From NCBI GenBank assembly GCA_964036045.1, contig OZ038392.1:23586090-23650089 (forward strand): 64,000 nucleotides of DNA, given 5' to 3'. The position numbers and the translations under genes are program-made. Positions within the stretch are counted from its first letter, which is position 1; each line of letters begins with the position of its first letter. Shown in pieces: positions 6,444-62,794 of the stretch. Source of the DNA: Eutreptiella sp. 'Long Island Sound 2002'. Taxonomy: Eukaryota; Euglenozoa; Euglenophyceae; Eutreptiales; Eutreptiaceae. The notes beneath the pieces are model-generated. The model saw nothing but the letters and a program-made list of their open reading frames with translations, searched no databases and was not told the origin of the DNA.

Positions 6444-6569
6444 TGCGCGAGGCCTCGCGCAAACACCAACACAACAGCGCAATAAAATGCATCACAAAGA
6501 AAAATGTGCCGCACAAGGTGACAGCATAAAGGTCGTCGAAGAGGAATGCATAGCGCGAGCCCTCGCGCA
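6444..6569. promoter_or_regulatory. Palindrome pair 3' of TIR-inner gene 2
   Basis: Copies at 6444-6461 (perfect, centre GC) and 6552-6569 (first base A, centre CC) of TGCGCGAGNNCTCGCGCA. They lie 26 and 134 bp past the gene 2 stop. TIR-outer also has two copies just past its gene 2. Confidence 0.85.
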
Positions 6570-6594
6570 CAATATATCAGAACAAACGAAGAAA

Positions 6595-9525
6595 TTACTT
6601 TTTCTTCGGAACAGTTTGCATCTTAGAACCCAGTGCCTTAGCAACGGACGTCTTACCCTTAGGCGGTGGCTTTGCGGGCTCGAATCCTGGTTGGGACTGA
6701 CGGGCTGGCTGCTTGAATGGAGCTCGGGCCCCGGTTTCCTCGGACCTCGGCTTCGCTGCCACTTTCTTCGCTGCCTTGCCCTGGGAGACCTGCGGTTCCT
6801 CCTCCTCTTCTTCCTCGCTCTTCTCCTCTTCATCCCCATCGCTCTCGTCGGATTCTGCACCGGTAACCGACTTTGCTGCTTGAGGCTTAGAAGCAGTCTT
6901 CTTCTTCTTGGGGGCTGGTTGCCCACCAGTAGACTTCCTCTTTGCGGGGGCCAGTGCTTCTGCAGCTTGACCTTTCTCAACAGTCTCTTCCTCCTTCAGC
7001 GACAACGCCTCAGAACCCAACTTGTCATCGCGAACCCAAAGGGGAATACCACGGTTTGCCCAGTTGGCCTGCTGGTCCCAATCACCAGACGCGTCGAATA
7101 CCGACCCTTGTGTCAAGACGTGGTTCAACTGAGTCTGCACTCTGTTGACCCAATCGGAGAGATTGTCGGTGGTGACACCAAGAAGGTACATGCAAGAATC
7201 CGGCTCGATGGACGCAATCTTGCACACCAGGTGCGGCTGATGATCAATGAACACAAACGCAGGCTTGAAGCTCTTATCCTGCTTCAGGTAATGGAGGAGA
7301 GTGTCGAAATACCACATAACCGTCGTTATCCGAAGGTGACCACCAAATTCAGCAGGATCCATCTCCGCTACTTGAGTAGGTCCAAACGTCAGATAATTCG
7401 GAATCTGCAATGAGGGAGAAGTTATTGCGCGAGGCCTCGCGCAAAGAGCGGACGTAATGAGGGAATTATACCTTTCTCGACCAGCTGTCTGGTGACGAAA
7501 TCAGCAACAAGCAAACGTCAAACGTTGTAGGATCCCCTGCAGGCTTCGGTTTGACCGGCCAACTGAAGACCGGAACACGCAACATGTTAGCCATGCGCGG
7601 CGCGTTGAAATCATCGTTGAGACGCCTCTCTGTTTCCGTTTCCAGCACGTCGAACATGTTGTCAACAACAGTTTGAGAGCCGCAGATAAGGGTATCTGCA
7701 CGCGCCATCTCTTCATACAGCCAGGCTGGGCACATCATCTCAGGAGCAAGATGTTCAAATATGTCGCCGTTGATGACAATCAGGTTCTTGTCAATATCAA
7801 TAAACCGCCTCGGGGGATTGTGGGCCAACGCTGCAATTCGGGTCGCCTTAATTGTGATAGTTTGACTTGCCAGTAATCGATCCTGCTGTTCCACTGTCTT
7901 GAATTCACCAGTAACGCCAGCAGCTGGGGGGACCACACGGCTCTTGGTAGGCTCTTGACCCAGGAGTTCTCGGACATTGAGGATTTTCAGGGAGGCGGGT
8001 TTGCCTTTCTCTGTGACCTGCCACAGTGGTGCGCGAATCATGGATTTCCATGCCGGCCATGGACCGCGACTTTTGCCTTCAGACTCACGCCAATAGCCCC
8101 ATGTACCAAGAGTCACCTTCAGGGCAGGCCTTCGAAGTGCAGCAACCTCTTTGCGGGTGCGCATGTCCTTGGCTAAAGAACAGAAATGGAGAAAGTGCAG
8201 CGCACCAATGCAGAAACGGAACCCACGTCGCGTCGATGGTACACACCTTTCTCAGGTCGAACGTACTGGCCGTTGTGCGGGTGCTCCAGATGCATTGAGA
8301 CCCACTGGTCAGGGATGATGTCGTCAAACGAATTCTGCAAGGATTTAAGGGTTGTTTTTTCTTCTTGCATCACTTCTGCCACTTTCTTGTAGAACTCCGG
8401 CAATAGGATCCTGTCCAGTTTCTTCGGCGCGTTCTTCGTGACTTTCTCCCCTTTGTCGTGGAACTTCTGCAGACGTTTCACAGCCTCCGGACCAGCATAG
8501 TAGGCAAACGTCATAAAATCTTTCGACAATTTATACGTTTTGTCCCGAAAGTGACAACGTTATGCACGAGGCCTCGCGCAACGAAGAGCATCGAAACAAC
8601 GATTAATGAACATACGAATTGACCAGGCTGCTTCAGTTCAGCGGTTGGAACCAGGGCACTCATCTGCACAGCATCCACAATGGCGATCTTGAGATTGCTG
8701 TACGTGTCAGCCAGGCCTCGCCGCCGCTGATCTTCAACACATCGAATGAGGTTATCTGCTGCCTCATACAGCGGTATTGGCTCAACGTCTTGTGCGCTTC
8801 CTTGAGCTTGTCCCGCCAGCTTTGCACGGAAGGCCCACAGTGTCGTAGGCTTCAGAATATCGGCGATGCATGTAGTATGCCACTGCTGCAGATCCAGACA
8901 TGCTGTGCGTCGCTTCTCCCGGATCTTCGCAATCGCTTCCACGCTGTGCTGTCCAGATACACACCAATAATCGACATCTGCAAATATGAGACACGTCTAT
9001 GCTCGAGGGCTCGCGCAACGAGAAGAGCGAACAGTCAGTAGCTAACATACTATTATCTTCCCAGAGACCGACGTGTAATGGGCCTGTTGGCGGTGCTGCT
9101 TCGAGTGACTCAATACGCTTCTGCAGTAACTTCGTATCTTTCTGTCTGATCTGCCCCTTTGTCTTCTCCTGGTCGATTCTCACGTTGTCCAGCTCAACCT
9201 CCACCTGCCTCCCACCCGGTTTCAGGTGGTCCTCGATGTCAGTACCCAAGGTTAGGCCAGGATCTGGTGTTTCCTTCTTCTTCCGCCCCTTCTTTGGTGT
9301 TCCAGCCTCCGATCCTGAGGTCCCAGGGTCACAGTCCGTATCTTGTCGTTCCTCGGCTGTTTTTTTGGCGGGGCCTTTCCATTCTGCGATGAGGAGAAAG
9401 CCTGTATTGAAGGAAACGAAACATTGAAAAGGGTTAAAATCGTCGTCGATAATGCATATGTGAGGCGCTTTTAGCGAATACGAGTACAGTATGGTTGAGA
9501 ATGCAAAACTGAAGGGGCACGTCAC
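6595..9525 (-). CDS. TIR-inner gene 2, multi-exon, unrecognised
   Basis: Family unknown. Exons inferred by matching TIR-outer gene 2 and GT..AG borders: about 9074-9400 (basic, Lys-rich start; GQIRQK; ends WEDN), about 8625-8972, about 8200-8520, 7470-8164 (PPRRFIDIDKN, VINGDIFEH) and 6595-about 7405 (IPNYLTFGPTQ; VMWYFDTLLHYL). The last exon ends in a low-complexity tail: an acidic block (about 20 Glu/Asp) between Lys-rich stretches, then a Lys-rich C-terminus (PKKK), which suggests a nuclear, possibly nucleic-acid-binding protein. Roughly 600-650 residues. Three of the introns contain a palindrome (7426, 8563, 9000). The start is uncertain; an extra 5' exon ending near 9400 is possible because TCGCAG precedes the coding match. 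No stop interrupts the exons I could trace. Confidence 0.7.
7426..7443. promoter_or_regulatory. Palindrome in last intron of TIR-inner gene 2
   Basis: Perfect TGCGCGAGGCCTCGCGCA in the intron just before the last exon. TIR-outer has a perfect copy in the equivalent intron at 15403-15420. Confidence 0.9.
8563..8580. promoter_or_regulatory. Palindrome in an internal intron of TIR-inner gene 2
   Basis: TGCACGAGGCCTCGCGCA, one mismatch. The equivalent TIR-outer intron holds 14254-14271. Confidence 0.85.
9000..9017. promoter_or_regulatory. Palindrome in first traced intron of TIR-inner gene 2
   Basis: TGCTCGAGGGCTCGCGCA, one mismatch in the left half-site. The short equivalent intron in TIR-outer (13786-13862) has none. 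Confidence 0.8.
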
Positions 9526-9544
9526 TGTTTTTGACTGTCAACCT

Positions 9545-9617
9545 TGCGCGAGGCCTCGCGCCAGAGAGGGGGTGTACTAACCTGTTGTTTCATGCTGTTT
9601 GCGCGAGGCCTCGCACA
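9545..9617. promoter_or_regulatory. Palindrome pair between TIR-inner genes 1 and 2
   Basis: Copies at 9545-9562 and 9600-9617, starts 55 bp apart, directly beyond the gene 1 stop (9618) and upstream of gene 2. TIR-outer has a pair in the same place with starts 57 bp apart (13210 and 13267). Confidence 0.9.
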
Positions 9618-11596
9618 TCACTGCATGTCCTCCAATCTTCTTCGAATGTTTCGCAGCGTGTCGGCCTCTCTCTGTTCCTCCAACACACTGCGTTGGGGGA
9701 TCAGCTCCGACAGTTTTCGCTTAAAACCAGCCTTAAGCGGCCCCTGCTGCGTTAGCACCAACAACACAGACACAAGGACTTGTTTGTAGTGGTTAGAACT
9801 CTTTGGAATTAAAAGAGACGGTGGAAAGTTAGGTACACCACTGCGCGGCCAATGCGCCTGAATTGTACAAGTAGGCTCAGCACACCACCTAACCCAAGGC
9901 ACACATACACGCTCTGCGTTCAAGTAAGCAGTTAACCGCTGACGCACGGAATTGACAAAGGAATTGGGGATTTTGCAGACGTTCACCCTGTGAGCTTCTT
10001 TGCGGATAGTGATGAGATGATACAGATCGTCAACATCTTCAATGGTCACTGCACCTCTGTTTTGGCCCTTCTTTGTCACAAGGCTGGAAAGCAGACTTTC
10101 ACAAAACTCCTCGGCAAACGTTTGTCCAGGCATGGCTTTTTGCCATGCAGTGTGGCACAATAGCGCAGTTGCAACAGTGCGTTCGTATTTTAAAAGTGTG
10201 TCCCCCATGTTCAAACGGTCTAACAGACACATAACAATCTGCAATCCCTCAGAAGCAAAAACACCCGTGTTGGCCGTCTCCCCGGCCCAATTGCACTTTC
10301 TAACGAGGTGTCCTAGGTATAGTAACATAGGACAGTATTGTGTTAACAGAACCTGCATGGCCTTACACACAGCGTAACGGAGGCGGCCTCGCCGATTTAC
10401 GGGCACTGCCAGCCCAAAGGAAATGACATTTTCTGTTGAGGCGGCGTATGTGGGGGCCCATACCCAACAGCAGTGCGCCAACAGTTATCTCCATTGTGAT
10501 CAGCTTGGGAAAACAGGGGACTGTGTCACCGCTGCGCAACAAACCTTTACGGAAGAAAGTCACGATCGGCCAAAATGAGCGAAATGTTTGTGTAATGCAA
10601 AACTTGTGCGCGTGCCAGAAACCATACAAAATGGGGTGTGACCGCAAGAGAAGCCGGACATTCCATTTTTTCACCGTACATCATCTTACAAATGCGGTAA
10701 TGCATGTTCTCATCACATAAAACAGGCACAACTGGTCGAGTGTGCTGCGCCAAGTCCCTAGTGAATTGCAATAGGTTAAGCAGCGAGACGTTGCCGCTCA
10801 CCTTTTCTTTGCTTAGACAAAGGGGTCGCCAATGTGGTCTCTTGGCAGGTACAGGGCGAATAACGTCAAGCGGCGCCCTAATGTTTCGAACAACAGGCCG
10901 CGTGCTTGCAAATCCTAGATCACGCAGGATACGTGCAAATGATCCCTCGGTGTTCCCCAGCATGCGTGCAACAACAGGTACACGCCGTTCAAGCTCTTCC
11001 AGGCTAGGATGACCATGCCAGTAGCGCAGTGCATCCCTCAGTAGCAACACAGCCAACGCTGTTGCGTTAAGGCTTTTGTCGTTCTTGTCAGGATTTGTGG
11101 TAAACTGTTTGTTGTACCAGTTGTCCATCCATAACACAACCCACTGCTGGTGTATTTTGTTCCATGTAGTCTGTAACCTGACTGCGGCCTTTTCCTTCAC
11201 CGAAGGTGCGCTATATCGCGCCAGACCTGACCTTGCTAAAATGCGACGCTGCGCCCTACTTCCCTCTATCGCAACAACAGACTTTGATTTTCCCTGGTAT
11301 GGAACGGCGCGGTGGCACATCAGCAAATAAAGGCGCCGGGCCTCCTCAATCAAAACACCAACCCATCTCTTGCCTTCTGCCGCAATCGCCTTTTCAAGGC
11401 TGCAACGCGTCCGTTCATTTTTGCGCAGACGCAGAAAAAACACAAACCACAATCGCGGGCTCTCGTCCCCCTGTTTTAGCCCTTCCCACAGTTCTTCTGC
11501 CGCGTGGTACGGCGGTCCTTCTGAGCAGACATCGCAGAAAACTCCAGAGGCTGCTGCCACTGTCTTCTCAAGGTCCACCTCTTTTCGCAGGGGCAT
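9618..11596 (-). CDS. TIR-inner gene 1, putative transposase-like protein (frameshifted)
   Basis: About 659 codons from the ATG at 11596 (MPLRKEVDLEK). One frame covers 10547-11596; two frame changes, near the A6 run at about 10666-10671 and near 10440-10480, are needed to continue to 9618. Conserved with TIR-outer gene 1 throughout. Notable spots: WMDNWY around residue 158, VLCDENMHYRI around 295, and FWHAHKFCITQTF around 325. The order Asp...Asp...His-x-x-x reminded me of RNase H-fold transposases with a DN / GDQ / FH layout such as the DUF6589-type family; that is inference only. The frameshifts could be real decay, sequencing error in homopolymers or, less likely, programmed. As the only conserved partner of gene 2 in a TIR element it is the best transposase candidate. 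Confidence 0.75.
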
Positions 11597-11984
11597 TGTT
11601 GCTGTGAAAAATAATTGCGTAACTGTATCTACGTAAAAATCGCTGTTTTAAAAGCTTTCTTGATTTGAAACATCAACCTGTCACACAGTTTTCGCGCGAC
11701 CAATTATTCTGTGATTCGTCTGTCGCATGCACCATTTTCGGTTAACTGTAACTGTCTGGTGATCCAACATTTGACTAGTTAATCCTATTTGCGGTAGCCA
11801 GTTGTGGCGCGCTACCATCGCTGTTGGGCAGTGAAGCCAGCGGTGACAACAGTATGAAAACTGGAGATGCCGGCGGGACCTGTGTGGGCGCCCATGCAGC
11901 AGCGCCGCATCAAGGGAATGCACATGCTGTGTAGTTGGTGGATCTGTTCCATTTTTGGTTTCTATGAGCGCTTATCAGATCCAT

Positions 11985-12288
11985 TGCGCGAGGTCTCGCG
12001 CAATGATCACCGAAACTTTAATATTTCTCATGCGCCGTTCCATGCGCGAGGCCTCGCGCTTGAAACTACAGTTTGTTCCGGAACATTTATACTTTTCAAG
12101 ATTCTTGGGTACACAATTGTTGAAGTTTATTCGTCAATACATCCATCACTATCACTTCATCCTGATAATGGTACTAAGTTACGTGTACAAATACGACAGG
12201 GTTACATTTTTCGACAACCTGTCTAATGCGTTGTGCTGTAGTACATTAATCTGGCACAAATGAACGTCTTTGCGCGAGGCCCCACGCA
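11985..12288. promoter_or_regulatory. Three palindromes upstream of TIR-inner gene 1
   Basis: Copies at 11985-12002 (centre GT), 12043-12060 (last base T) and 12271-12288 (two mismatches in the right half-site). The first pair starts 58 bp apart, like the intergenic pairs. I see none upstream of TIR-outer gene 1. Confidence 0.85.
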
Positions 12289-12462
12289 AAGAATGGTCAC
12301 AAAGAAATACTTTTGCCTGTCTCGCCCATGGGACACGTCATTCTTATAGAAATATTTATTTCCCCACACTTGTTTGCGACGGTTTAGAAATATCCATCAA
12401 AACAACTATTTTTTGATGCCTTTGGGAACCTGTCATTTTCCTACCTTTTCCTTCGTTTTTGG

Positions 12463-12485
12463 CCATGCAACTTGAGCCGCCTAAG
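12463..12485 (-). repeat. TIR-inner right terminal inverted repeat (23 bp)
   Basis: Exact reverse complement of 6095-6117, followed directly by the second CCATT at 12486-12490. Confidence 0.95.
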
Positions 12486-12490
12486 CCATT

Positions 12491-13157
12491 GCTGTTGTAC
12501 TTGCGTCACCTGGTACGGGAGTGCAACTTGGCGGGGGAAACTAACGGTACAGGGTCGCGGGCCCAGGAGGTGATGCAGTTGAGTTTGTGTCTGTTGCGGA
12601 GGCTGCGACGAGGACCGTGTGACACCGTACTGAAGTACAAACGCACCATCATGTGCACATTGCTTTACAACAGCAAGTGGCACCATGACCTGCTCGGTCA
12701 GGCACACTCAGAGCAGTTTGGAGAAGGGGTGTTGAGCAAGCTGGTGCGCGACAAGGCAAAAAACACCGGTTCTGTTACTGTTGAGGAGGTGGAAAACCAT
12801 TACCTGTTACTAAAAGCTGGTCCAGGCGGCAATCGTGTTGGTGTGCAAAACGTTCCCAAGAACCTTGTACACAGGATGCGACAAGAACTGACAAGACTTT
12901 TGGCAGCAGACCGGATTTGCATGGCCTATGTGGAATGGGAGCCAAAACGCGTCAGCACTGTTGCAACCTTGTGGCCGCGGAGGCTACCAAGATTTTCACC
13001 CTCACCAACGCAACCACTTGGCAACAACCACGACCGGCTACTTGGTCACTGTGTACTGGATGCCCTCATTGACGAAAAGACAAACCCCACCAACCAACTG
13101 AAACGGAAACTGGATGCTGTTGTGGGGCGGAGAACAGAAACGGATGCTGACAGATAG
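12491..13157 (+). pseudogene. TIR-outer gene 1, 3' part
   Basis: Continues the protein interrupted at 6094. Matches the last ~220 residues of the inner gene 1: LLYLRHLVRECNLAGET, the LKYKRTI..LLYN block, SVTVEEVENHYLLL, LAADRICMAYVEW and a basic C-terminus ending at 13157. This part is open with no stop. An ATG at 12459 lies inside the inserted TIR and is not the original start. With the 5' part the protein is about 653 codons, close to the inner copy's 659. What the protein does is unknown. Confidence 0.85.
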
Positions 13158-13209
13158 GACGCAGCAACGCCCAACGTGCGGCAACGCATGCGGTAACTGA
13201 CACCCGCAG

Positions 13210-13284
13210 TGCGCGAGGCCTCGCGTACTAAAGGATACGAGAAAGAGGTCTGTAATGCAATGGGAGTGCGCGAGACCTCGCACA
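13210..13284. promoter_or_regulatory. Palindrome pair between TIR-outer genes 1 and 2
   Basis: Copies at 13210-13227 (one mismatch) and 13267-13284 (centre AC, one mismatch), 57 bp apart. They sit between the gene 1 stop and the gene 2 start, as in TIR-inner. Confidence 0.9.
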
Positions 13285-14253
13285 CTGAGTAGGTCCCTAA
13301 GTCCGGTGGAATTGGTCGCAGCAAAGACGGTTGTGTAGTATTTTTGCGAAAAAGACTGGGAAAATGGCGTTTGGACTGATTTCAGAGCGGAAATGACTGT
13401 GTTTCGTGTCATGCCATCTGCCCTCTTCAGGTAATTTTTGGGACCATGAGTCAACCAGGGTCGCCAGAACGTAGACCACCAGACGCAGAGGCCGTGGAGC
13501 CATCACCAGGGACCGACCAAGGGGACACAACGAAGAAAGAACGCAAGAAGAAGGAGGATAAGAAGCCAATACCGGAGATGAAGCTCACAGTTGACGTTCA
13601 ACAGCGGCTGCGGAAGGAGAATGGAAAAGCAGTGAAGGTAAAGATTAATGATTTGAAGATTGACAAGACCAAGGAGCACGGACAGATCCGACAGATCGAC
13701 CACGACGACGTTGCCAAACAAGTGGCAGGATACCAAGCGTTGCCGCCACCTGGACCGTTGCGCGTAACCGCATGGGAGGATAGTGGTATGACTTGCTTCG
13801 CATTTTTACATACAATCGACGACATTTCTTATCCCTGCTGTGGTACATGATTTGCGTTGCAGATGGCTCGCTTTACGTTCTGAATGGTCAACATGGGAGA
13901 GAAACATGCAGAAAGATTCAGGAAATGCGGCTCGCAGAAGGCAAAGAACTGGAGGACTAGCAAGAATATTGCTACGTTGACATTTTCAAGTACAAAACGC
14001 CTTGGTGGATCCGGGCCAAGGTTGCAGGATTGCAGCAAACTGCCAGCCCGTCTGTGACGTGGATTCCGCTGTCCGAGGCGCTAGACAACATGTTGTTGTA
14101 CTTTGAGGACAAGAAGCGGGAAAAGGAACCACAGCATTTCAAACGGCCCAAAACTGCTGTTGTCCAGGCTGCCGTCAACTCTGCGTTTCTTGCGACCGAG
14201 CTGTTGCAAGAACTAGGGCACACAGTATGTGTTCGTGCGTCACACGGTCGCAC

Positions 14254-14271
14254 TGCGCGAGGTCTCGCGCA
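14254..14271. promoter_or_regulatory. Palindrome in intron 2 of TIR-outer gene 2
   Basis: TGCGCGAGGTCTCGCGCA, perfect half-sites, centre GT. Confidence 0.9.
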
Positions 14272-14616
14272 CTCTATGGCACGGTTTTCCCTCCTGGGAC
14301 GCGACATTCAAGCACTGGAGGGGCATCTTGTCTACTGAGACCGCGCCGCGGTTACTGGTATGAAGAATCTCGAGAGTAAGAGCAAGAAACAGGACGTTAC
14401 AAGGAATGCCTTCAAGAAGCTGCAGGGGCCGCATCTACCAAGCTTATTGCAGAAGGTCTGTGCGCATATGAACCTGAAGGAATCGACCATACACAGCACC
14501 CAGACGTACATTGACGCCTTGATTACGGAACAACAGGTTACTTTCCACCTTGACAATCCAGACAAGAAGGATTTTGTCAACCAAACCGCAAGTATGCGTC
14601 GATTGTGCAGCTTCAG

Positions 14617-14634
14617 TGCGCGAGGGCTCGCGCA
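14617..14634. promoter_or_regulatory. Palindrome in intron 3 of TIR-outer gene 2
   Basis: TGCGCGAGGGCTCGCGCA, perfect half-sites, centre GG. Confidence 0.9.
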
Positions 14635-15402
14635 CTCAACCGGCTTTTTCATCTCTGCACAGCTGCCGATGCGAAGATCCGAGCAGAAGTTGCAGCTCTG
14701 GGCACGACACAACTGAAGATTGGCCTGGGAAACTGGGGTTGTTGGGGAGATGCAGAACGTTCGAAGTGCCGGTCGCCGTGACCAAAGTGGAAAACATTGA
14801 CCGGTCCACCTCTGTGGCTGACTGGGGACAAGGGAACACCTCCGTCACCGCAGACGCTGTCCATGCAGAAACAACTGCAAAGGAAGGCTGAGGCAAATGC
14901 ATCGGCACCAACGACGCAGACACAGTTGAGTACTGGCGAAGTGATCAATGTCTCCAAGCGAGACAACGAAGGGGACAAGTGCACTTTGACAGCAAGCCGT
15001 ATTGAGGATATCGAAGAGACACCACCAGCCCGTTTCCGGGACTTGCAGTACCCGTTGTGGGTTGTCAACGCTGACCTTTTCGTAGAATATGACTCTGCAG
15101 CATTTGTTCGTAGGTGGTTGTTTGACGTGAGGATGTTGGGGAAGGACCTCATTTTCTATGGCGATGCTGATGTTGTGCACCGTATTGGCCGTGACATGCA
15201 GGAGCTCTGGCATATCGAGAAGGACAAGGATCAAACTACAGCGCCTTTCTGGCATCCCTGGTTTCCGAGTATACTCTTGGTTTTTGGGTTCTGTTATAAG
15301 CAACATGTATCAGTTTGACGGGCACAGTATGTGGATCGGAACAACGAGTCGCTGGGATAAGCAGGTGTATCTACTTCTTTCGCCGGTTTTGATGCCGTTG
15401 TG

Positions 15403-15420
15403 TGCGCGAGGCCTCGCGCA
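15403..15420. promoter_or_regulatory. Palindrome in last intron of TIR-outer gene 2
   Basis: Perfect TGCGCGAGGCCTCGCGCA. Same intron as 7426-7443 in TIR-inner. Confidence 0.9.
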
Positions 15421-15528
15421 CTGCTCTCTCCGTCATTCGTCTTTATTCATCGCATTTGCAGTTGCCCAACTATGTGACGTATTCTGCTGGACATTTCGAA
15501 GAGATGCAGTACAACACCCTCGGTGGTT

Positions 15529-15539
15529 TCATGCCTCTG
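15529..15539. repeat. LINE-A target-site duplication TCATGCCTCTG (left)
   Basis: Eleven bases repeated exactly at 61715-61725. Deleting everything between and one copy restores the gene 2 reading GGFMPLIHVLWYL, aligned without gaps to GGHLRITTVMWYF in TIR-inner. Confidence 0.95.
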
Positions 15540-15552
15540 GTAGGTAGGTAGG
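15540..15552 (-). repeat. LINE-A 3' tail of CCTA units
   Basis: GTAGGTAGGTAGG on the plus strand reads as a short tandem CCTA tail at the LINE's 3' end instead of poly-A. Confidence 0.75.
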
Positions 15553-16049
15553 TCAAGTCGGGACTGGGGTTGCCCCGCAGGGGGTCTTACCAAGGGGCTT
15601 TCGCTCACCCACCCACGGCCCTACTGCACGTGCCCCCACAAAGCAGCTCCCCCACATGGCAGAAGGGCGCGGTCGCCGCGAGCAGTACCCTACAGCGGGT
15701 TCTGCCCAGAGAGGTAACCCATGTTCGACCGAAGTCTCACATTCCCCTCCTTTGGGCGGACGATACGTGGGGGAGGGTCTCATCGCACATCCTCATCAAC
15801 CTCGGGATTCTGGGGCCCAGGGGCCGGGAGCCAGGCCAAAGGTCCTGTCCTGCAGGCACCCGCACCTGGGTTGGTTTTCAGTAGGCGTGAGGCGACTTGA
15901 AGAAGCACGTGCTACGGGACTCGCATGCCGTGGCGCACACTCACGCCTCCTGACTCGGTCGAGCTTGCGCTCTCCCGGGGGGCCGGGGGTTGGAGGTAGG
16001 TCGTTGCGGTTGGTTGGTCGGTCGTTTAACGGTTCAGTGTAGTTTGTTA

Positions 16050-32274: not shown

Positions 32275-34566
32275 ACGCTTCCGAAGGCTAAAGAAACAGG
32301 AATTGCTCCGTCTTCAAGGGGGACTGCAACCCCTCGAGAAATGGTGTGAGGACTTTAACAAACACCTCCCTGACGTCCCGACCTCTGACCTGGTCCCGAT
32401 AGTGGACGCCATTCTCCGAGAGTGCCCGGAGGCCTACCACTCGATTACCACCCCGGCGGGAGGGACAGCCCCGTCCAAAATTCAAAAAGAATTCATCCAA
32501 TTGGCCAATGCCCTCCCCCCAGCCACCCACCCCCGATTTGGAGAAAAAAAGAGGCAGCTCAATGACTACCTCGATGAATGGCAGAAAGCGAAACAGAAAT
32601 CGGCCCGGACCGCGGTACACAGAGCGATCGTCCAGGGCCGCCAACTCAAGAGTGCCATCCAGAAACACCTCCAACCCCCGGATCAGGCTCCAATCTCCCT
32701 CAGGCGCTCTGATGGAACCCTTGCTACAGACACCAAAGAGGTTGCAAAGATATTTTCGGATACGCTCCTCCACTTGGGGGGTTCGCCTGACTACACCCCC
32801 CCCGATGATTTCACAGAGCACCTCCTGAGCCACACCCCCCAGTGCCCTTCGGGCACAGAAACTCAGGACATCCCGGACATGACATGGTCAGAGTTTACCG
32901 ACATCCTCCACTCGGCTAGCCCGCGCAAGGCAGGAGGAGACGACCACACCAACACCTACCTGCTCTCCGTCCTCCCCCCCCACCTGCAGACGCTCTTCTT
33001 TCTGGTGGTAAATCGCTTCCTGCATGAGCCCCTGCCTCCCCACTGGACGACCGCCCAAGTATGTTTGATCTACAAGAAAAAATGCCCCCACGACCCCGCA
33101 AACTACCGCCCAATAGCCCTTCCAAACACTGTCTACAAGCTAGTGGCCAGACATGCGGCCTCCGCCCTCCAACCCTTCATCAGAGATCATTCCCTCATGC
33201 ACCACAGCGAACACGGGGGCATGCCAAATTTCCGAACCATGGACCACCTTTTTCACGTCACGGCAGAAATCGCCCGACCCCCCCAGGCCTACCATTTTTA
33301 CATTGATTTTAACAAGGCCTTTAACAGCGTTCCCCACCCCACCCTCCGTCGGGTCCTCCACCACTATCGAATGCCGGCGGGACTGGTAGACCTGATCAGT
33401 GGACTCTAAGCCCACCCCCAGGATGCCCCTCTTGTCAACAATGTCACACCCTACCACTACCTCCAAACCAGGGGCCTCCGCCAGGGATGCCCCATGTCCC
33501 CTGTCCTGTTCATCCGTTATTCTAACGTGCTGCTCCATGCAGCCCCTCAACCCTCTCCGTTGGAGAGACCCGCCGAGACCTCAGCACACGCTTTCATCGA
33601 TGACAAATTGTACCGATCACCCTCCCAGACCTACATCCAAAAGTTAATTGACTTCTATGACACGGACGCCAGGACATGGGGACTCTAAATGAACTGTGAC
33701 AAGTCAGAGGTGCACGCCCTGGGTGGCGTCCCACAGCATGACTTCCGGAGCCCAAGCGGCTTCACACTTTGCACTGTCTACCCGGATACCAAACAGCCAC
33801 AGAAGGGCTACAAAAACCTGGGTGTTTACATCTACAACGATAAGCACCCCCCGCAAGTCCGACACCAAATACACTCGGAACTGAACAGCTACTTCGTACA
33901 CCTTTCCCCGCTTCGCCTCACCCTCCCTGAGCTGGTTAAACTGGTGAATTTCCAACTAATACCAATCCTCACCTACCGCCTCATTGCCCACCCTTTTCTC
34001 CCCAGCGAAATAGATGAGCTCACGGCACCGGTCTGGAAAGAGCTTGCTACGCATGGCAGAATCTCGCCCAAAGTCTCCACTAAGGACATATACCAGCCAC
34101 GTGCTAAACTGGGGCTAGGCCTCCGCCACCTAGGAACAGCGGTTCACAAGTCTTTTGTTGAGGCGGGACTAAGGTACCTGAACCAAGACGGACCCCCGGC
34201 CAGTTGTGTGGCAGTTAGGGACGCCCTCCTTTCGGCACGGCAAAATGCCCTTCAAGATAGCTTCCTGGATGCGGCCAACCGCCTGAGTCTTCGATTCCAC
34301 GCCCCTGGACCATGGAACCCCTGCCTCCCCAGTGAACTACACGAGCGAGAACGACTGTATGCTGCACCCTGAAATGCCCCCCCCTGCCTGGCCACGGGTA
34401 CCAAAGTCTACACAAAAACAGCCACCATTTGCTTCGACACCGGGGAATCCGCTACCATCACGGAACGGAGTAATTTCACCTTCACCCCCCCCAACACCCC
34501 TCCTCTCCCCCCGGGTGACATAACCCACTACCACCTTTTCCCACCCTTCTCTTCCCCGCAAACCCG
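32275..34566 (+). pseudogene. LINE-B1 ORF2 reverse transcriptase domain
   Basis: Begins with the linker RKRFRRLKKQELLRLQ, then RT blocks KAGGDDHTNTYLL, CPHDPANYRPIALPN, YHFYIDFNKAFNSVPH (catalytic Asp region), TRGLRQGCPMSPVLF and HAFIDDKLY (FIDD at about 33595, the catalytic Asp pair). Thumb and connection follow to 34566. In-frame stops: TAA at 33407-33409 and 33686-33688, both after GGACTC, and TGA at 34370-34372 where LINE-B2 has CGA. The frame then runs into the chromovirus at 34572 and resumes at 45945. Confidence 0.85.
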
Positions 34567-34570
34567 CAAC
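34567..34570. repeat. Chromovirus target duplication CAAC (left)
   Basis: CAAC before the left LTR and again at 45945-45948. LINE-B2 (around 50131) preserves the unoccupied site, CGCAACCCCGACATCC, with a single CAAC. A fifth base would not match (G against C). Confidence 0.75.
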
Positions 34571-34571
34571 G

Positions 34572-35368
34572 AGAAAAGTTTATAGTGTTTTCAGCACTGT
34601 GTTTTGCCTCTCCTGCTGCTTGCTGTTGGTGTAGGGTTTCCTGCTGCTTGTTTTTGGAGATGAAAAGCTTTGTTTTGATGAAATACAGCCACTCCAAGTC
34701 ACTCCAGGATAGCCCAAGCCAATAGTATGCAAAGAGAAGAGGATTCAGGATCAAAGCATGAAGGGCTGCAGTGTATACAGTGAAAGATGATTGGATATTC
34801 ACACAAACTGCAACTCAGGTCACAAATGAATGCATATTCACAAAGATAGCTGAAATGTTTTAGGAAAAGAGTTAGAAAACTGCCTCAGGATCACTCCCTC
34901 TCCATAGTGCCATCTTAGGAGATGTGCACTCTTTATTTTGGGTCCCATATGTGCTGAGGTGGCATGGTATGTGGCGATGAGGTCACTGCCATGTCACATA
35001 GGATCTTCCTACTTAGCTAGGCTGACCAGGAATTGAACCCAGGACCTCTCAAAAAGAGGTGCCCAGCCCCCTAGGGTGCATACCACTAGGATAGCTAAGA
35101 ATTCATGGAAAAACATAGATAAATTCATAGGCTCTACTTTAGGTATGTCAGTGCTCAGTCAACTCAGGAAAAGATGAATAGCTTCACATTGAAAGGGGAT
35201 TAAGGGGTCCACTCCATATCTTGATTGGGTGTTTGGTTCCATAGGTCAAAATGTGTTATCACCAGTTTTGGTTGGACCAATACTAAGATAAAAATGCATT
35301 GATGCTCAGTGCATCTCTAATACAACTAGAGTATGCCTCAAAGCAATGGAAAAGCACTTTTTCTTACT
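34572..35368 (-). repeat. Chromovirus 3' LTR
   Basis: Direct repeat of 45147-45944. On the element's strand the ends are AGTAAGAAAAAG... and ...AACTTTTCT, not the usual TG...CA. Differences seen from the other LTR include C/G near 34805, C/T near 34905, CC/TT near 35209 and T/G near 35299. Confidence 0.93.
35016..35095 (-). other. tRNA-like segment inside the LTR
   Basis: On the minus strand this reads GCTATCCTAGTGGTATGC... and ...GGGTTCAATTCCTGGTC. It has an A-box-like TAGTGGTATGC (35078-35088) and a B-box-like GGTTCAATTCC (35029-35039) about 38 bp apart, and GCTA/TAGC at its ends. The T-stem does not pair well, so it is probably a decayed tRNA or tRNA-derived SINE piece carried by the LTR. 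An identical segment lies in the other LTR at 45592-45671. Confidence 0.5.
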
Positions 35369-45050: not shown

Positions 45051-45131
45051 CTTAATCCGCCCTTCTGCTTATATTTGCCTGCTCAGAGCACTGGTTGTAC
45101 GGCGCGGGGTCGCTGCCGGTGCACAGAGACA

Positions 45132-45147
45132 GGCTGCTCCTGCTACC
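45132..45147 (-). promoter_or_regulatory. Chromovirus primer-binding site candidate
   Basis: On the element strand, TGGTAGCAGGAGC follows the 5' LTR directly and resembles the primer site complementary to initiator tRNA-Met 3' ends (TGGTATCAGAGC), with a few mismatches. Confidence 0.55.
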
Positions 45148-45944
45148 AGAAAAGTTTATAGTGTTTTCAGCACTGTGTTTTGCCTCTCCTGCTGCTTGCT
45201 GTTGGTGTAGGGTTTCCTGCTGCTTGTTTTTGGAGATGAAAAGCTTTGTTTTGATGAAATACAGCCACTCCAAGTCACTCCAGGATAGCCCAAGCCAATA
45301 GTATGCAAAGAGAAGAGGATTCAGGATCAAAGCATGAAGGGCTGCAGTGTATACAGTGAAAGATGATTGGATATTCACAGAAACTGCAACTCAGGTCACA
45401 AATGAATGCATATTCACAAAGATAGCTGAAATGTTTTAGGAAAAGAGTTAGAAAACTGCCTCAGGATCACTCTCTCTCCATAGTGCCATCTTAGGAGATG
45501 TGCACTCTTTATTTTGGGTCCCATATGTGCTGAGGTGGCATGGTATGTGGCGATGAGGTCACTGCCATGTCACATAGGATCTTCCTACTTAGCTAGGCTG
45601 ACCAGGAATTGAACCCAGGACCTCTCAAAAAGAGGTGCCCAGCCCCCTAGGGTGCATACCACTAGGATAGCTAAGAATTCATGGAAAAACATAGATAAAT
45701 TCATAGGCTCTACTTTAGGTATGTCAGTGCTCAGTCAACTCAGGAAAAGATGAATAGCTTCACATTGAAAGGGGATTAAGGGGTTTACTCCATATCCTGA
45801 TTGGGTGTTTGGTTCCATAGGTCAAAATGTGTTATCACCAGTTTTGGTTGGACCAATACTAAGATAAAAATGCATGGATGCTCAGTGCATCTCTAATACA
45901 ACTAGAGTATGCCTCAAAGCAATGGAAAAGCACTTTTTCTTACT
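45147..45944 (-). repeat. Chromovirus 5' LTR
   Basis: 798 bp direct repeat of 34572-35368; it contains the second tRNA-like segment (45592-45671). Expected to hold the promoter and polyadenylation site. Confidence 0.93.
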
Positions 45945-47466
45945 CAACCCCGACATCCCGGTTCCTCTCCAAGCGGACCTCATGGATAGCACCTGTGAAG
46001 GACACTGGTTCCACCTGCCTAACCTCCGCCACGTTCTAAACCATGAGGATCTAATAGGGTGGGGGTGCATTCAGGCGGCTAACCTCGTCGCCGAGCTCCC
46101 CTTTGATGACACGGCGTGGATCTATACGGATGGAGGCTCGGGTGATGGGGGCCATGGCAGCGCCTTCCCTATCTTTTGGCAACAACAGTGTTACGTCCTC
46201 TGCCGCTCGTCACCCTCGCCCACTTCAGGGGGCTCCGAGCAATGGGCCATGGCAATGGCGTTAGCACACCTCCCCAACATCCTCCCCAATACTCCGGTGG
46301 TGATCCTGGGTGATAACCTTGACACAGTCGAAGCGGTCAACCGGGCCCTTTCCAGCCCCCCCCCAGCGAGGCCGTCCACTTACACACAGGGCACACGAGA
46401 CACTGCCTACACATCCCTCCTTGCCTCCCTCCCCCACCTGATCCATGTGGCTTGGATCAAGGGCCATGCACACTTTATGGGAAACGAGCTCGCGGACTAT
46501 TTCTCAAAGTGGGCCGCTCAAGCATTACTGTGGCACCCCTCCCTCCTACCCCCCCCCCACCCTGCGGGAGTGGTCACTAGTGGGGGCCTAGCCCTCATCT
46601 CAAAAATTCTGAAACACCACACCCGCTCCCTCCACCCGACCCACCCACACACGCGCCTGCACTTCGGCACCAGCGCAAGCTTTCTCCGACAGAGCAGCTT
46701 TTTCTCGGCAATCGCATTCAAGTGGGTGTCAGGCACGTATGGTTGTCAGGACTACAGACCTCACTGTGACACCAGTGACCGAACATGCCCTAAATGTCAA
46801 GAAGTGCACCCGATGGATCCCATCTCATTCTGCGCCCTCTGTCCCACGATGCAGTGGTTCCAGCAGTGTCTCTCCAGCGCCTGGCCCCCCCCTTTTGACA
46901 AATTAGCACTCGAATGGTGGATAGCCAGCGACCATGGGGACAGACGACTCGCTACCAGAACGCTCGTCCCAAAAACGCTCCACACAACGCTTGCAACGTC
47001 CCCGTCAGGCAAGGACCCCGCTATGCATGCTAAGGACTTTGACAGCGCCCTGGTTAAACGCAATAGGGCGCTCACGCCACTCATCGAGGACGCAAACAAA
47101 TTTCTCCACGACAACCCACCTGGGGCCATCGGCCCACCAGTAACCAGAAACAATTATGTTGATTCCCTGGGTGAATTCAGTACCTCCAGGGGCCATGCCC
47201 CCCGGGACCCGCAAAAATACGTTCCCCCCTCGGCCCTGCCTGAGGCGGTGTTGACACCCCCGAAGCGCAAAGCCTCGGATCAACCACAGCAGAAGAAAAG
47301 CCCCCCCTCCCCCCGGCACCGCCCAAGCCAGCAAAGCCCAGCGCAGGGCAGCGCGCTCTGGACGCCTACCTGCAGCCGATTGGCCCCGGTCCCCCCCCCC
47401 TCCTCCCCCTGCGCCACCCCAACGCGACGGAACCCAGGTGCAGCACAGAGGGCGAAAGCGCAGTGA
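45945..47466 (+). CDS. LINE-B1 ORF2 RNase H and zinc finger end
   Basis: Resumes the LINE-B1 frame after the chromovirus and is open to 47466. RNase H residues are visible: WIYTDGGSGDGGHGS (first Asp, near 46120), SEQWAMAMAL (Glu), VVILGDNLDTVEAVN (Asp) and HVAWIKGHAHFMGNELADYF (His/Asp). About 130 residues later, CPKCQEVHPMDPISFCALC gives a zinc-finger-like Cys-x2-Cys...His...Cys-x2-Cys. A Pro/Lys/Arg-rich disordered tail ends the protein. RNase H removes the RNA template from the hybrid during integration. Confidence 0.88.
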
Positions 47467-47891
47467 AGCCGCCCCCCCCCCCGGCCGCGCACCCTCCTGA
47501 TCCCAAACAGCCTCGGATCGACATATTCTTCCCCCCGAACTAGCGGCCTGAACCTGTTGTATGTCTCTCCTGATGCCTCCAGTAATTCCACACGATGTAG
47601 CTAGCTAATCCACCCTGACCACAGCGGAAAGTACCCTCTGTTAGCCAAGCTTCGCTTACAGTTTCGAATGCACATCCAACTCTAATGATATATTGCATAT
47701 ATCACCCCCTCATGTGCCGGTGGACACCCTGCAGGATCTTGAGGCGCCGAGCACCCGAATTTTCACTGACCCAATGGCGTAAGGGGCATCCATCGGGTGA
47801 CTCTGCCTACTGGGTTCTGCTGTAAAGTAGTTTTGCAGTGTAAATTTGATCGAACAGTCTTCACCGGACTCAAAATGTGTCTACGTGCAAA

Positions 47892-47906
47892 AAGTACAAT
47901 GCGGTG
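47892..47906. repeat. LINE-B1 target-site duplication (right)
   Basis: AAGTACAATGCGGTG, as at 28333-28347. Confidence 0.95.
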
Positions 47907-49355: not shown

Positions 49356-49364
49356 ATATTCCAC
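49356..49364. repeat. LINE-B2 target-site duplication ATATTCCAC (left)
   Basis: Repeated at 52039-52047. Removing the insert restores the LINE-A reading EQVEYVPGATV. Confidence 0.9.
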
Positions 49365-52038
49365 GGAAGGGCTACAAATACCTGGGTGTTTACATCTACA
49401 ACGATAAGCACCCCCCGCAACTCCGACACCAAATACAATCGGAACTGAACAGCTACTTCGTACACCTTTCCCCGCTTCGCCTCACCCTCCCTGAGCTGGT
49501 TAAACTGGTGAATGTCCAACTAATACCAATCCTCACCTACCGCCTCATTGCCCACCCTTTTCTCCCCAGCGAAATAGATGAGCTCACGGTAGCGGTCTGG
49601 AAAGAGCTTGCTACGCATGGCAGAATCTCGCCCAAAGTCTCCACTAAGGACATATACCAGCCACGTGCTAAACTGGGGCTAGGCCTCCGCCACCTGGGAA
49701 TAGCGGTTCACAAATCTTTTGTTGAGGCGGGACTAAGGTACCTGAACCAGGACGGACCCCCGGCCAGTTATGCGGCAGTTAGAGACGCCCTCCTTTCGAC
49801 ACGGCAAAATGCCCTTCAAGATAGCTTCCTGGATGCGGCCAACTGCCTGAGTCTTCGATTCCACGCCCCTGGACCATGGACCCCTGCCTCCCCTGTGAAC
49901 TACACGAGCGAGAACGACTGTATGCTGCACCCCGAAATGCCCCCCCCTGCCTGGCCACGGTTACCAAAGTCTACAAAAAAACAGCCACCATTTGCTTCGA
50001 CACCGGGGAATCCGCTACCATCACCGAAAGGAGTAATTTCACCTTCACCCCCCCCAACACCCCTCCTCTCCCCCCGGGTGACATAACCCACTACCACCTT
50101 TTCCCACCCTTCTCTTCCCCGCAAACCCGCAACCCCGACATCCCGGTTCCTCTCCAAGCGGACCTCATGGATAGCACCTGTGAAGGACACTGGTTCCACC
50201 TGCCTAACCTCCGCCACGTTCTAAACCATGAGGATCTAATGGGGTGGGGGTGCATTCAGGCGGCTAACCTCATCGCCGAGCTCCCCTTTGATGACACGGC
50301 GTGGATCTATACAGATGGAAGCTCGGGTGATGGGGGCCATGGCAGCGCCTTCGCTATCTTTTGGCAACAACAGTGTTACGTCCTCTGCCGCTCGTCACCC
50401 TCGCCCACTTCAGGGGGCTCCGAGCAATAGGCCATGGCGTTAGCACACCTCCCCAACATCCTCCCCGATACTCCGGTGGTGATCCTGGGTGATAACCTTG
50501 ACACAGTCGAAGCGGTCAACCGGGCCCTTTCCAGCCCCCCCCCAGCGAGGCCGTCCACTTACACACAGGGCACACGAGACACTGCCTACACATCCCTCCT
50601 CGCCCCCCTCCCCCACCTGATCCATGTGGCTTGGATCAAGGGCCACGCACACTTTATGAGAAAGGAGCTCGCGGACTATTTCTCAAAGTGGGCCGCTCAA
50701 GCATTACTGTGGCACCCCTCCCTCCTACCCCCCCCCCCACCCTGCGGGAGTGGTCACTAGTGGGGGCCTAGCCCTCATCTCAAAAATTCTGAAACACCAC
50801 ACCCGCTCCCTCTTCCCGACCCACCCACACACGCGCCTGCACTTCGGCACCAGCGCAAGCTTTCTCCGACAGAGAAGCTTTTTCTCCGCAATCGCGGTCA
50901 AGTGGGTGTCAGGCACGTATGGTTGTCAGGGCTACAGACCTCACTGTGACACCAGTGACCGAACATGCCCCAAGTGTCAAGAAGTGCACCCGATGGATCC
51001 CATCTTGTTCCGCGCCCTCTGTCCCAAGATGCAGTGGTTCCAGCAGTGTCTCTCCAGCGCCTGGCCCCCCCCTTTTGACAAATTAGCCCTCGAATGGTGG
51101 ATAGCCAGCGACCGTGGGGACAGACGACTCACTACCAGAACACTCGTCCCGAAAACGCTCCACACAACGCTTGCAACGTCCCCGTCAGACAAGGACCCCG
51201 CTATGCATGCTAAGGACTTTGACAGCGCCCTGGCTAAACGCAATAGGGCGCTCACGCCACTCATCGAGGATGCCAACAAATTTCTCCACGACAACCCACC
51301 CGGAGCCATCGGCCCACCAGTAACCAGAAACAATTATGTTGATTCCCTGGGTGAATTCAGTACCTCCAGAGGCCATGCCCCCCGGGACCCGCCAAAATAC
51401 GTTCCCCCCTCGGCCCTGCCTGCGGCGGTGTTGACACCCCCGAAGCGCAAAGCCTCGGATCAACCACAGCGGAAAAAACGCCCCTCCCCCCCGGCACCGC
51501 CCAAGCCAGCAAAGCCCAGCGCAGCGCAACGCGCTCTGGACGCCTACCTGCAGCCTATTGCCCCCCCCCCCCCCCTCCTCTCCCTGCGCCACCCCAACGT
51601 GACGGAGCCCAGGCGCAGCACAAAGGGCGAAAGCGCAGTGAACCCGCCCCCCCCCCCCGGCCGCACACCCCCCTGATCCCAAACAGCCTCGGAGCGACAG
51701 ATTCTTCCCCCCGAACTAGCGGCCTGAACCTGTTGTATGTCTCTCCTCATGCCTCCAGTAATTCCACACGATGTAGCTAGCCTCTGTTGGCCAAGCTTCG
51801 CTTACAGTTTCGAATGCACATCCAATCCTCATGATATATTGCATATATCACCCCCTCATGTGCCGTCGGACGCCCTGCAGGATCTTGAGGCGCCGAGCAC
51901 CCGAATTTCCACTGACCCAATGGCGTAATGGGCATCCATCGGGTGACTCTGCCTACTGGGTTCTGCTGTAAAATAGTTTTGCAGTGTCATTCTGATCGAA
52001 GAGTCTTCACCGGACTCAAAATGTGTCTACGTGCAAAA
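49365..52038 (+). mobile_element. LINE-B2: 5'-truncated LINE-B copy
   Basis: 2,674 bp, same orientation as LINE-B1 and nearly identical to its 33808-34570 plus 45949-47891. It starts inside the reverse transcriptase thumb (KGYKYLGVYIYND) and ends at the same GTCTACGTGCAAAA. The 5' truncation and 9 bp TSD are typical of incomplete target-primed reverse transcription. It lacks the chromovirus and so preserves the empty site. Confidence 0.95.
49366..51676 (+). pseudogene. LINE-B2 partial ORF2 (thumb, RNase H, zinc finger)
   Basis: Two frames cover the C-terminal part of ORF2. The first carries the reverse transcriptase connection region and the start of RNase H (WIYTDGSSGDGGHGS) and runs to 50430, where TGG has become TAG after SGGSEQ; a 6 bp deletion follows. 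A further indel in the C-run near 50730-50750 moves the rest to the frame at 50750-51676, with CPKCQEVHPMDPILFRALC (one zinc Cys changed to Arg relative to LINE-B1). No start or catalytic RT core is present, so it cannot be functional. Confidence 0.85.
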
Positions 52039-52083
52039 ATATTCCACTTGCTCCGGTGGCCGGTGGTGGGCCTGGTTACCTCG

Positions 52084-53236: not shown

Positions 53237-53344
53237 CAGGGTGGTGGCCACCAGGTCCAGAGTGGTGGTGCTCCCCGTTGGTCCACCCCCCAGATTGGTG
53301 TGAAGGACCGCCAGAGGGCCGGTTTCCCTGCACCGATGGTTCGT

Positions 53345-56475: not shown

Positions 56476-56484
56476 TTTTTCGCC

Positions 56485-61693: not shown

Positions 61694-61714
61694 CTCATAC
61701 TCTACCGCTGCGTC

Positions 61715-61725
61715 TCATGCCTCTG
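61715..61725. repeat. LINE-A target-site duplication (right)
   Basis: TCATGCCTCTG, identical to 15529-15539. Confidence 0.95.
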
Positions 61726-62571
61726 ATTCACGTGCTGTGGTACCTTGACAAGTATCTGTTTGACTGTGGGCATGCTGACGCAGTGGTTGTTGTGCATGAC
61801 ACGCCTGCCATGGCTGCAAGGATTGCGATGTCGGACGAGTCGGGGAGGACCAAAGTGGCGTTTCTGGCTGTGTCAGCTATCAAGCAAAAGGACCTTGCGA
61901 ATGCCGTTGGAGGTGCTCTGCAGCATGCCATCATCATGCGGTACATGTTGGAAGCCGATCAGACGGAGCAGGGAGTGACAGCTGCAACTTGGGATACTCG
62001 AGAAGAGTGGCTTTTGCTTGACATTCCACTGTGGGCTTTGGACAGCAACGGAGGGTATGAAGGGCACCAGAAGGTGCATTTTGCAGAAGCCGTCCAAGAG
62101 AAGATCATGACTGATGATGAGTCTACTGCGTCTGCACCTACCTTGCCCAAGCTGAAAAAGACTGCCCAAGTTGTACCAACTCGGGGTACTGCAGCCGGAA
62201 AAGGAACCCCCTCGAGTAGCAAGAAACAGGCGAAAGGAAAGGGGAAGGAATCGGACATGCCCGAAGAATCAGACGACGACGATGCCGACGAGGAGACAGA
62301 AGAAGAGGATCCGGTGCAAGTGCTGGGGACCCAGCAGAACCGCAAGCGGGCGCCCACCTCTCACTTCGATGCCAATCCCCATGATTCGGGTAAGGACCAG
62401 CCAAAGAAGAAAGCGAAGACTGCTGCGAGTGCTAGTGCAGAGTTCAAGCCGCCCTCACGTTCTGGTGATCAGCCATCCCTCGGTACCGTTGCCTCCCCGA
62501 GTGGGGGACGTACGGTGGCAAGAAACCTGGGTTCCAGGCTGGCTAAGGTTGCAGGACCGAAGAAGAAGTAG
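61726..62571 (+). pseudogene. TIR-outer gene 2, last exon
   Basis: Continues the exon cut at 15528/15539: MPLIHVLWYLDKYLF aligns to the inner ITTVMWYFDTLLHYL. The ~280 residues stay open to the stop at 62571. As in the inner copy, a globular part (VVVVHDTPAMAARI; REEWLLLDIPLWALDSN) is followed by a low-complexity tail with an acidic run (ESDDDDADEETEEEDP), Lys/Pro-rich segments and a closing VARNLGSRLAKVAGPKKK, matching VAKALGSKMQTVPKKK of the inner copy. The charged tail suggests a nuclear protein. An apparent upstream start at 61648 is inside LINE-A and is not real. Confidence 0.85.
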
Positions 62572-62617
62572 GTCACGATTAACCCATGTGTTTTTTGTCT
62601 CTTTTTGCAGTCATGTG

Positions 62618-62794
62618 TGCGGGAGGTCTCACGCACTCGCCTTCGATGTGACTGCAATTATATGCCCCTCAGGGCTTGTACATTTTTGCCGAGCTTTTAT
62701 TTCGGTGTTTGCATGTTGTGCATTTCGTGTCCTGTTTTTGTTGTCTTCCCTACACAATTGTTTCCACGACCTTGAGTGCGCGAGGCCTCGCGCA
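62618..62794. promoter_or_regulatory. Palindrome pair 3' of TIR-outer gene 2
   Basis: Copies at 62618-62635 (two mismatches, centre GT) and 62777-62794 (perfect), 47 and 206 bp past the stop codon. Same arrangement as 6444-6569 in TIR-inner. Confidence 0.85.

Follow-up and report, generated by a model that had tools for sequence, protein, structure and literature searches.

The 64,000-nucleotide stretch of Eutreptiella sp. 'Long Island Sound 2002' DNA analyzed here (the window), part of the 58-Mb contig C15 in an assembly of 2.28 Gb, contains two related transposons with terminal inverted repeats (TIRs), one inserted into the other, and both carry repeated copies of an 18-bp palindrome, TGCGCGAGNNCTCGCGCA, which is the motif under study. 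The inner TIR element (6095..12485, 6391 bp, genes on the minus strand) lies within gene 1 of the outer element and has a perfect 23-bp TIR (3' TIR, CTTAGGCGGCTCAAGTTGCATGG, at 6095..6117 on the plus strand; 5' TIR at 12463..12485 on the minus strand) as well as a target-site duplication (TSD), CCATT, at 6090..6094 on the left and 12486..12490 on the right. Its gene 1 (9618..11596, minus strand) has no introns, and its frame is broken in the window copy. Gene 2 (6595..9537, minus strand; start codon position provisional) has five exons, and comparison with other genome copies places its four minus-strand introns at 8978..9050, 8545..8615, 8173..8246 and 7405..7471. These introns are of the GT..AG type, with some acceptors mutated in single copies: that of inner intron 2 is GG in the window and AG in the genomic loci L069 and L076, while that of intron 4 is mutated in L069.

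The outer element is present on the plus strand in three parts: a left part (4432..6094) with the bulk of gene 1, the 5' end being cut at 4432; a middle part (12486..15539) with the end of gene 1 followed by gene 2 as far as the beginning of its exon 5; and a right part (61726..62890, left edge approximate) with the remainder of gene 2 and a 3' region whose end is incomplete. Gene 2 is thus split by a large insertion near 15540. An 11-bp repeat, TCATGCCTCTG, flanks this insertion (15529-15539 and about 61715-61725), which fits a LINE-type insertion that has itself received further elements. Elsewhere in the genome, full outer-type copies (L064, L067 and L070) measure 6820-6858 bp, have the TIR CTTAGCCCACGCAAACTGCACCC, and are flanked by the TSDs AAGTT, TAAGT and TGTGT/CGTGT, the last pair having one mismatch. 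Between inner and outer elements, the intronless gene 1 product (about 665 aa) is 42% identical and the gene 2 product 31% identical, as compared on pieces in which broken frames were marked X.

Counting matches with up to three mismatches, we found 17 palindrome sites in the window (7 exact, 8 with one mismatch and 2 with two), while dinucleotide shuffles of the window gave an expectation of 0.36 matches and a maximum of 2 in 100 shuffles. The original prediction had described seventeen copies of the motif, ten in the inner and seven in the outer element, and none elsewhere; the number stands if imperfect copies are counted, but not for exact copies, and the confinement to the two elements was borne out at the same threshold, with no match in the rest of the window. 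All sites are noncoding, lying upstream of gene 1, between the genes, in gene 2 introns, or after gene 2. In the inner element, three are upstream of gene 1, at 11985..12002 (exact), 12043..12060 (one mismatch) and 12271..12288 (two mismatches), that is 483, 425 and 197 bp from the 5' end; two are between the genes, at 9600..9617, immediately past the gene 1 stop codon, and 9545..9562 (one mismatch each); three are in gene 2 introns 1 (9000..9017, one mismatch), 2 (8563..8580, one mismatch) and 4 (7426..7443, exact); and two follow gene 2, at 6552..6569 (one mismatch) and 6444..6461 (exact), 457 and 349 bp from the 3' end. The outer element has a pair between the genes (13210..13227 and 13267..13284, one mismatch each), exact sites in introns 2 (14254..14271), 3 (14617..14634) and 4 (15403..15420), and a pair after gene 2 (62618..62635, two mismatches; 62777..62794, exact).

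The correspondences between the two elements that had been noted earlier proved correct, namely the matching sites in intron 4 (7426 and 15403) and intron 2 (8563 and 14254), the pair between the genes spaced 55 or 57 bp apart, and the pair after gene 2, for which we measured a spacing of 108 or 159 bp. To these positions we can add that the site at 9000, in intron 1, is found in the inner element only, and that at 14617, in intron 3, in the outer element only, so that three of the four gene 2 introns carry a palindrome and one intron of each family, intron 3 in the inner element, is without one. The truncation at 4432 removes the 5' sites of the outer element; full-length L067 and L070 carry three there. 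In the full copy L067, three sites near the 5' end are followed by two between the genes, one in each of introns 2, 3 and 4, and two after gene 2, ten in all; the inner element likewise has ten, distributed in the same manner except that its intron sites are in introns 1, 2 and 4.

Genome-wide, the palindrome occurs at 18,760 sites with at most one mismatch, compared with 81 for the reversed control. Inner-type TIRs were found at 1747+1717 places and outer-type TIRs at 1103+1075 places, also with at most one mismatch, and the controls for both gave 0. We examined individually the 50 exact palindrome sites listed for contig C1 between 1.8 and 9.5 Mb, which form 16 clusters, all of which were fetched. 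All 50 fall inside this transposon family: an inner- or outer-type TIR (at most three mismatches) was present in 14 of the 16 loci, and the two TIR-less loci, L069 and L076, contain inner-type genes 1 and 2. Conversely, all exact TIR places listed below 9.51 Mb of C1 (8 of 8 inner-type, 13 of 13 outer-type) are element ends in motif clusters. The linkage to the family therefore held for every exact site listed, and a motif scattered without such linkage was not what we found in the stretches examined, including the TIR-chosen ends described below.

The two families differ in the half-site: outer-type elements have GTGCGCGAG, inner-type elements (A/T)TGCGCGAG. Among sites with at most two mismatches in loci L064-L099 and the window, which are related copies and hence not independent, the base preceding TGCGCGAG was G in 94 of 96 outer-type half-sites and in 12 of 12 from gene-less relatives (total 106/108), and A or T in 178 of 180 inner-type half-sites and in 16 of 16 from gene-less relatives (total 194/196). 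Most outer-type sites extend to AGTGCGCGAG..CTCGCGCACT, the next pair being A..T in 38 of 48. Among exact sites genome-wide, 4,690 are flanked by G..C and only 212 (105+107) are mixed, with G in one half and A or T in the other. Since 28 of the 90 inner-type sites are flanked by T..T or A..A, it is the base in each half that matters, and not pairing across the palindrome; such independent half-site bases are better accounted for by a dimeric protein on DNA than by an RNA hairpin.

The sites closest to the element ends keep nearly fixed distances from them. Counted from the 5' end, the first site comes at 198-199 bp in outer-type copies (L067 and L070) and at 197 bp in the inner element; in gene-less elements the distance is 200 bp (outer-type L066 and L071) or 206-207 bp (inner-type L065 and L074). 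From the 3' end, the first two sites are at 344-345 and 503-504 bp in outer-type copies and at 349 and 457 bp in the inner element, compared with 346 and 502 bp in outer-type and 376-377 and 482-483 bp in inner-type gene-less elements. Gene-less elements of both types carry three or four sites each, of the type matching their own TIR, and thus keep the TIR, the palindromes and the distances, and little else. Outside the TIRs and palindromes, the identity between types in gapped alignments was 0.65-0.78, while shuffles averaged 0.71-0.74 and reached 0.75-0.82; between 3' ends identity tended to be slightly above the shuffle average, with none exceeding the highest shuffle. Among the blastn matches listed (at most 30 per pair of types), we found mainly TIR ends and palindrome stretches, plus a few A-rich or coding stretches.

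As the loci used for this comparison had been chosen by the motif itself, we repeated it on ends chosen by gene 1 or by the TIR. Of 127 inner-type copies scored by gene 1 similarity, 10 were used; the 5' TIR was within the fetched stretch in nine of these, with the first site at 190-198 bp, and the 3' TIR in four, with sites at 348-349 and 456-457 bp. One copy (C21) had neither TIR in the fetched stretch, and five others had no 3' TIR there. The four copies with both ends are flanked by the TSDs TACCT, CCTCA, TTATT and TTATA/TTATG (one mismatch). For the TIR-chosen set we took 20 exact inner-type TIRs that follow one another on C1 (11.9-20.1 Mb; L139 excluded) and counted sites with at most two mismatches. 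Palindromes were present at all 20 ends (46 sites), the first lying at 197-208 bp in the 13 5'-type ends and at 348-376 bp in the seven 3'-type ends, and A or T flanked both sides of all 46. For all six outer-type TIRs listed on C1 (10.9-17.8 Mb), coordinates placed an exact G-type site at 198, 345, 501, 200, 189 and 345 bp; at the third of these, the nearer site, at about 345 bp, is inexact.

Several loci of the inner type showed further features. L122 with L123 (C1:13351667-13360113) and L124 with L125 (C1:13375536-13380473) are adjacent pairs of TIRs that are both 5'-type or both 3'-type, and are possibly foldback-like composites of the inner family. L130 and L131 have an inner-type TIR and palindrome sites at 198, 426-427 and 484-485 bp, but across 223 and 179 bp their sequence resembles that of the inner element at only about 75%, marking a further subfamily. 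In an inner-type gene-less element, the 5'-end palindrome is nested in an imperfect inverted repeat that spans about 55-60 bp (L065:5530-5590).

A second short motif, AAAA(TAG/CTA)TT, is also found near the ends. All four element types have it at positions 62-64 counted from the 3' end; at the 5' end both autonomous types have it at position 74, and the gene-less elements examined lack it. In the window it occurs five times over both strands, and two of these occurrences are at the ends of the inner element, as AAAATAGTT at 6158..6166 (plus strand, position 64 from the 3' end) and 12404..12412 (minus strand, position 74 from the 5' end). In the gene-1-chosen copies it was at 73-75 in seven of nine 5' ends and at 64 in one of four 3' ends, and in the TIR-chosen set at 74 in 4 of 13 5'-type and at 64 in 5 of 7 3'-type ends. 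This motif is less strict than the palindrome.

We measured conservation as the number of bases differing from the majority, dropping positions in rearranged parts (local identity <0.75). In the 5' noncoding region of the 10 gene-1-chosen copies and the window, palindrome cores differed at 9 of 480 positions compared with 230 of 4,726 other bases (p=0.002), and when this region was pooled with a stretch of gene 2 the counts were 21/992 and 554/14,165 (p=0.003). Motif-chosen outer copies gave 15/704 for cores and 1,605/32,622 elsewhere (p=0.0003). The cores thus diverge less than their surroundings, as had been expected of a selected motif, with significance in the 5' noncoding region and not in the gene 2 stretch. 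The comparison between families, in which identical cores persist where the surrounding noncoding DNA has been replaced, provides what we consider the stronger argument. CpG transitions were 1.3 to 2.7 times as frequent as other C/G transitions, and the CpG observed/expected ratio of the majority sequences was 0.88-1.21; with CpG decay this mild, heavy CpG-methylation decay is unsupported as the cause of the site pattern.

The original prediction had argued that retention of the palindromes reflects selection, for example as sites for a dimeric DNA-binding protein encoded by the element. Our results support selection, in that the sites hold their places in two families with unalignable noncoding DNA, end distances are kept in four element types, the flanks are family-specific, and the cores diverge less. 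As far as sequence can indicate, the same evidence speaks well for a dimeric DNA-binding protein as the reader of the sites, while its encoding by the element, and a role in transposition, silencing or expression, we infer. We therefore regard the palindromes as candidate binding sites of a dimeric, most likely element-encoded protein, which would probably serve both in composite element ends and in internal regulation. A sequence-specific protein would bind the palindrome as a dimer, one subunit per half-site, and the parallel change of the flanking base across all sites of a family would be expected if the sites follow the specificity of one reader. This reader would most likely be the product of gene 2 or gene 1. 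A composite end would comprise the TIR, the end-proximal palindromes and perhaps AAAA(TAG/CTA)TT at 62-75 bp; its palindromes would be, on the 5' side, one at about 200 bp, supplemented in autonomous copies by two at about 390-610 bp, and on the 3' side two, at about 344-377 and 457-504 bp. The element's machinery would recognize such an end in trans, on autonomous and gene-less copies alike. Recognition in trans, of the kind that TNPA sites serve in En/Spm (PMC2613891), is the most likely use of the end-proximal sites because gene-less elements, which need no expression, keep the distances. Intergenic and intron sites would most likely also be bound by this protein, which could thereby regulate its own expression or mark the chromatin of the element.

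By analogy, this palindrome system would be a variant of known self-recognition in DNA transposons and would work like En/Spm-TNPA or VANDAL-VANC. For En/Spm, a CACTA element, PMC2613891 describes a transposase together with a DNA-binding protein, the movement in trans of defective copies that retain the cis motifs, and the coexistence in one genome of two subfamilies whose subterminal motifs have diverged. The palindromes described here lie near the ends and are family-specific, and a requirement for them in cis would be predicted by this analogy. In contrast to the reiterated subterminal motifs of CACTA elements, they are long, few in number and at fixed distances, and are joined by intron and intergenic sites; furthermore, whereas CACTA elements have a CACTA TIR, a TSD of 2-3 bp and a tnp2-type transposase, the elements studied here have a TIR beginning CTTAG, a 5-bp TSD and no transposase match. 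For VANDAL elements, PMC5735166 and PMC10398659 report short, family-specific motifs in noncoding parts that differ between sister families. The former places VANC21 motifs mainly in the non-coding regions of VANDAL21, with other motifs in related families, and describes VANC motifs as dense and in one orientation, the targets often being tandem repeats. Family-specific motifs within noncoding regions are thus shared with VANDAL/VANC, while the absence of tandem arrays, the number of sites (at most 10 per element), their symmetry and their fixed positions from the ends are not. The intron and intergenic sites suggest that the palindromes also act in expression or chromatin, which would parallel VANC.

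Several observations weigh against this reading of the palindromes. The products of genes 1 and 2 gave no significant match in Pfam or the PDB and no DNA-binding domain, so the reader might be a host protein. Transposases need sites near element ends, and the intron and intergenic sites therefore require a second role. Conservation of the cores within families is only about two-fold: it did not reach significance in the gene 2 stretch (exons and introns) of the gene-1-chosen copies and the window (12/512 compared with 324/9,439, p=0.21) or in five motif-chosen inner copies (6/352 compared with 355/13,096, p=0.32), and CpG transitions in the gene 2 stretch were no rarer in cores (8/256) than elsewhere (30/1,064). 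In the outer-type copy L064 the first 5' site has been lost, the outer-type distances at TIR-chosen ends consist of the coordinates of six ends only, and, since the copies are related, the counts are not independent.

Four alternative explanations were considered. The sites might mainly serve anti-silencing or chromatin targeting, an element protein keeping its own family open as VANC does. Their location in noncoding DNA (introns, between genes and near ends), and their difference between sister families, both of which recall what is described for VANC21 (PMC5735166), favor this explanation, but we consider it fairly unlikely, as VANC motifs are described there as dense and in a single orientation while the palindromes occur singly or in small groups, the CpG transition rates and observed/expected ratios given above show little sign of heavy CpG methylation, though other silencing marks may act, and the fixed end distances point to transposition. 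If the reader were instead a host transcription factor or silencer, the sites would be kept for expression, or the host would recognize the element by them. The motif is indeed symmetric and CpG-rich, of the sort used by host factors, and the lack of a DNA-binding domain in the element's proteins would be accounted for. Nevertheless, a shared host factor does not explain why the half-sites differ between families, with 212 mixed sites against 4,690; all 50 exact sites listed for C1 between 1.8 and 9.5 Mb are in the family; and gene-less elements keep their sites at fixed distances, all of which makes a host reader quite improbable.

Two further explanations would dispense with a DNA-binding reader. 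A role of the palindromes as RNA hairpins, perhaps in splicing, is suggested by their ability to fold and by their presence in three of the four gene 2 introns, but gene-less elements and the region upstream of gene 1 also carry sites, each family has one intron with none, and the 28 of 90 inner-type sites with T..T or A..A flanks are unpaired at that position, so that we hold this to be highly improbable. It is scarcely credible that the sites are passive, functionless relics carried by descent or gene conversion: copies within a family are indeed alike (about 90-95% in most comparisons), but between families, where the proteins are 31-42% identical and the noncoding DNA is unalignable, the cores are identical and the distances kept, and parallel change of the flanking base at a family's sites is hard to explain passively. 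A dimeric, probably element-encoded reader of the palindromes thus remains our preferred interpretation.

Searches with the element proteins provided little further information on this reader. No transposase family was among the Pfam matches at E values up to 10, although HMMER filters drop most matches above 0.1, so that this result leaves room for remote homology. The sole Pfam match of outer gene 1, PF05571 (JAMP, E 0.16), is below the cut-off. Other matches below the cut-off were set aside, namely PF23988 (E 0.07, for an exon), CDC45 (E 0.024) and Cyclin_N (E 0.24) for outer gene 2, and L35 in the PDB (E 0.073). Gene 2 looked ParB-like by eye, but no ParB was among the Pfam matches (E up to 10) or the PDB matches. 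DUF1985, the domain of VANC, a protein type that removes DNA methylation, was absent from the Pfam scans. AlphaFold, applied to a 349-aa piece of gene 1 and run with no alignment, gave a mean pLDDT of 37, which is uninformative.

We could not place the element in a known superfamily; its TIR, 5-bp TSD and proteins fit neither En/Spm nor VANDAL. According to PMC12730594, hAT5 elements make 5-bp and Zisupton elements 8-bp duplications; the 5-bp TSD found here resembles that of hAT5 and differs from that of Zisupton (KDZ), and, unlike hAT elements, the proteins show no hAT transposase domain in the Pfam scans. Among the listed results of literature searches, those containing the motif strings did not concern transposons, judging by their titles, and none described the element, though we do not claim its absence from print. 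Viral contigs contained the motif in 48 stretches, with one site each, which we attribute to chance, and no relatives of genes 1 and 2 were found among them; nor were relatives of gene 1 found in a collection of genome contigs. A decayed relative of gene 1 with 27% identity, belonging to a distant family, is present in L071 (2160-3167, minus strand), and no repeated palindrome of this kind was found near it.

More tentatively, and as a possibility that we would not yet call probable, the elements may represent an undescribed cut-and-paste superfamily with about 5,600 TIR ends of two types, in which the palindrome would act as a self-address code separating sister families. If so, a one-letter difference in the half-site would let each machinery serve only its own autonomous and gene-less copies. 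To our knowledge, few cases are known of a transposon telling its own copies from those of close relatives, En/Spm-TNPA and VANDAL-VANC among them. With thousands of TIR ends, separated half-sites and minimal gene-less derivatives, the cis-requirements of such a system would be readable from sequence, and it would be directly testable by binding and excision assays.

Two minor observations concern neighboring sequences. The inner-type loci L069, L076, L068 and L077 have an unrelated sequence in common, which adjoins the end of gene 2 at the same or nearly the same place and looks like an insertion or captured segment that spread together with the element. Within the window, long direct repeats that are 94-99% identical (33797-34862, 45139-45438, 45945-47893 and 49361-52039) surround Gypsy-like open reading frames and are probably the long terminal repeats of nested or tandem retrotransposons.

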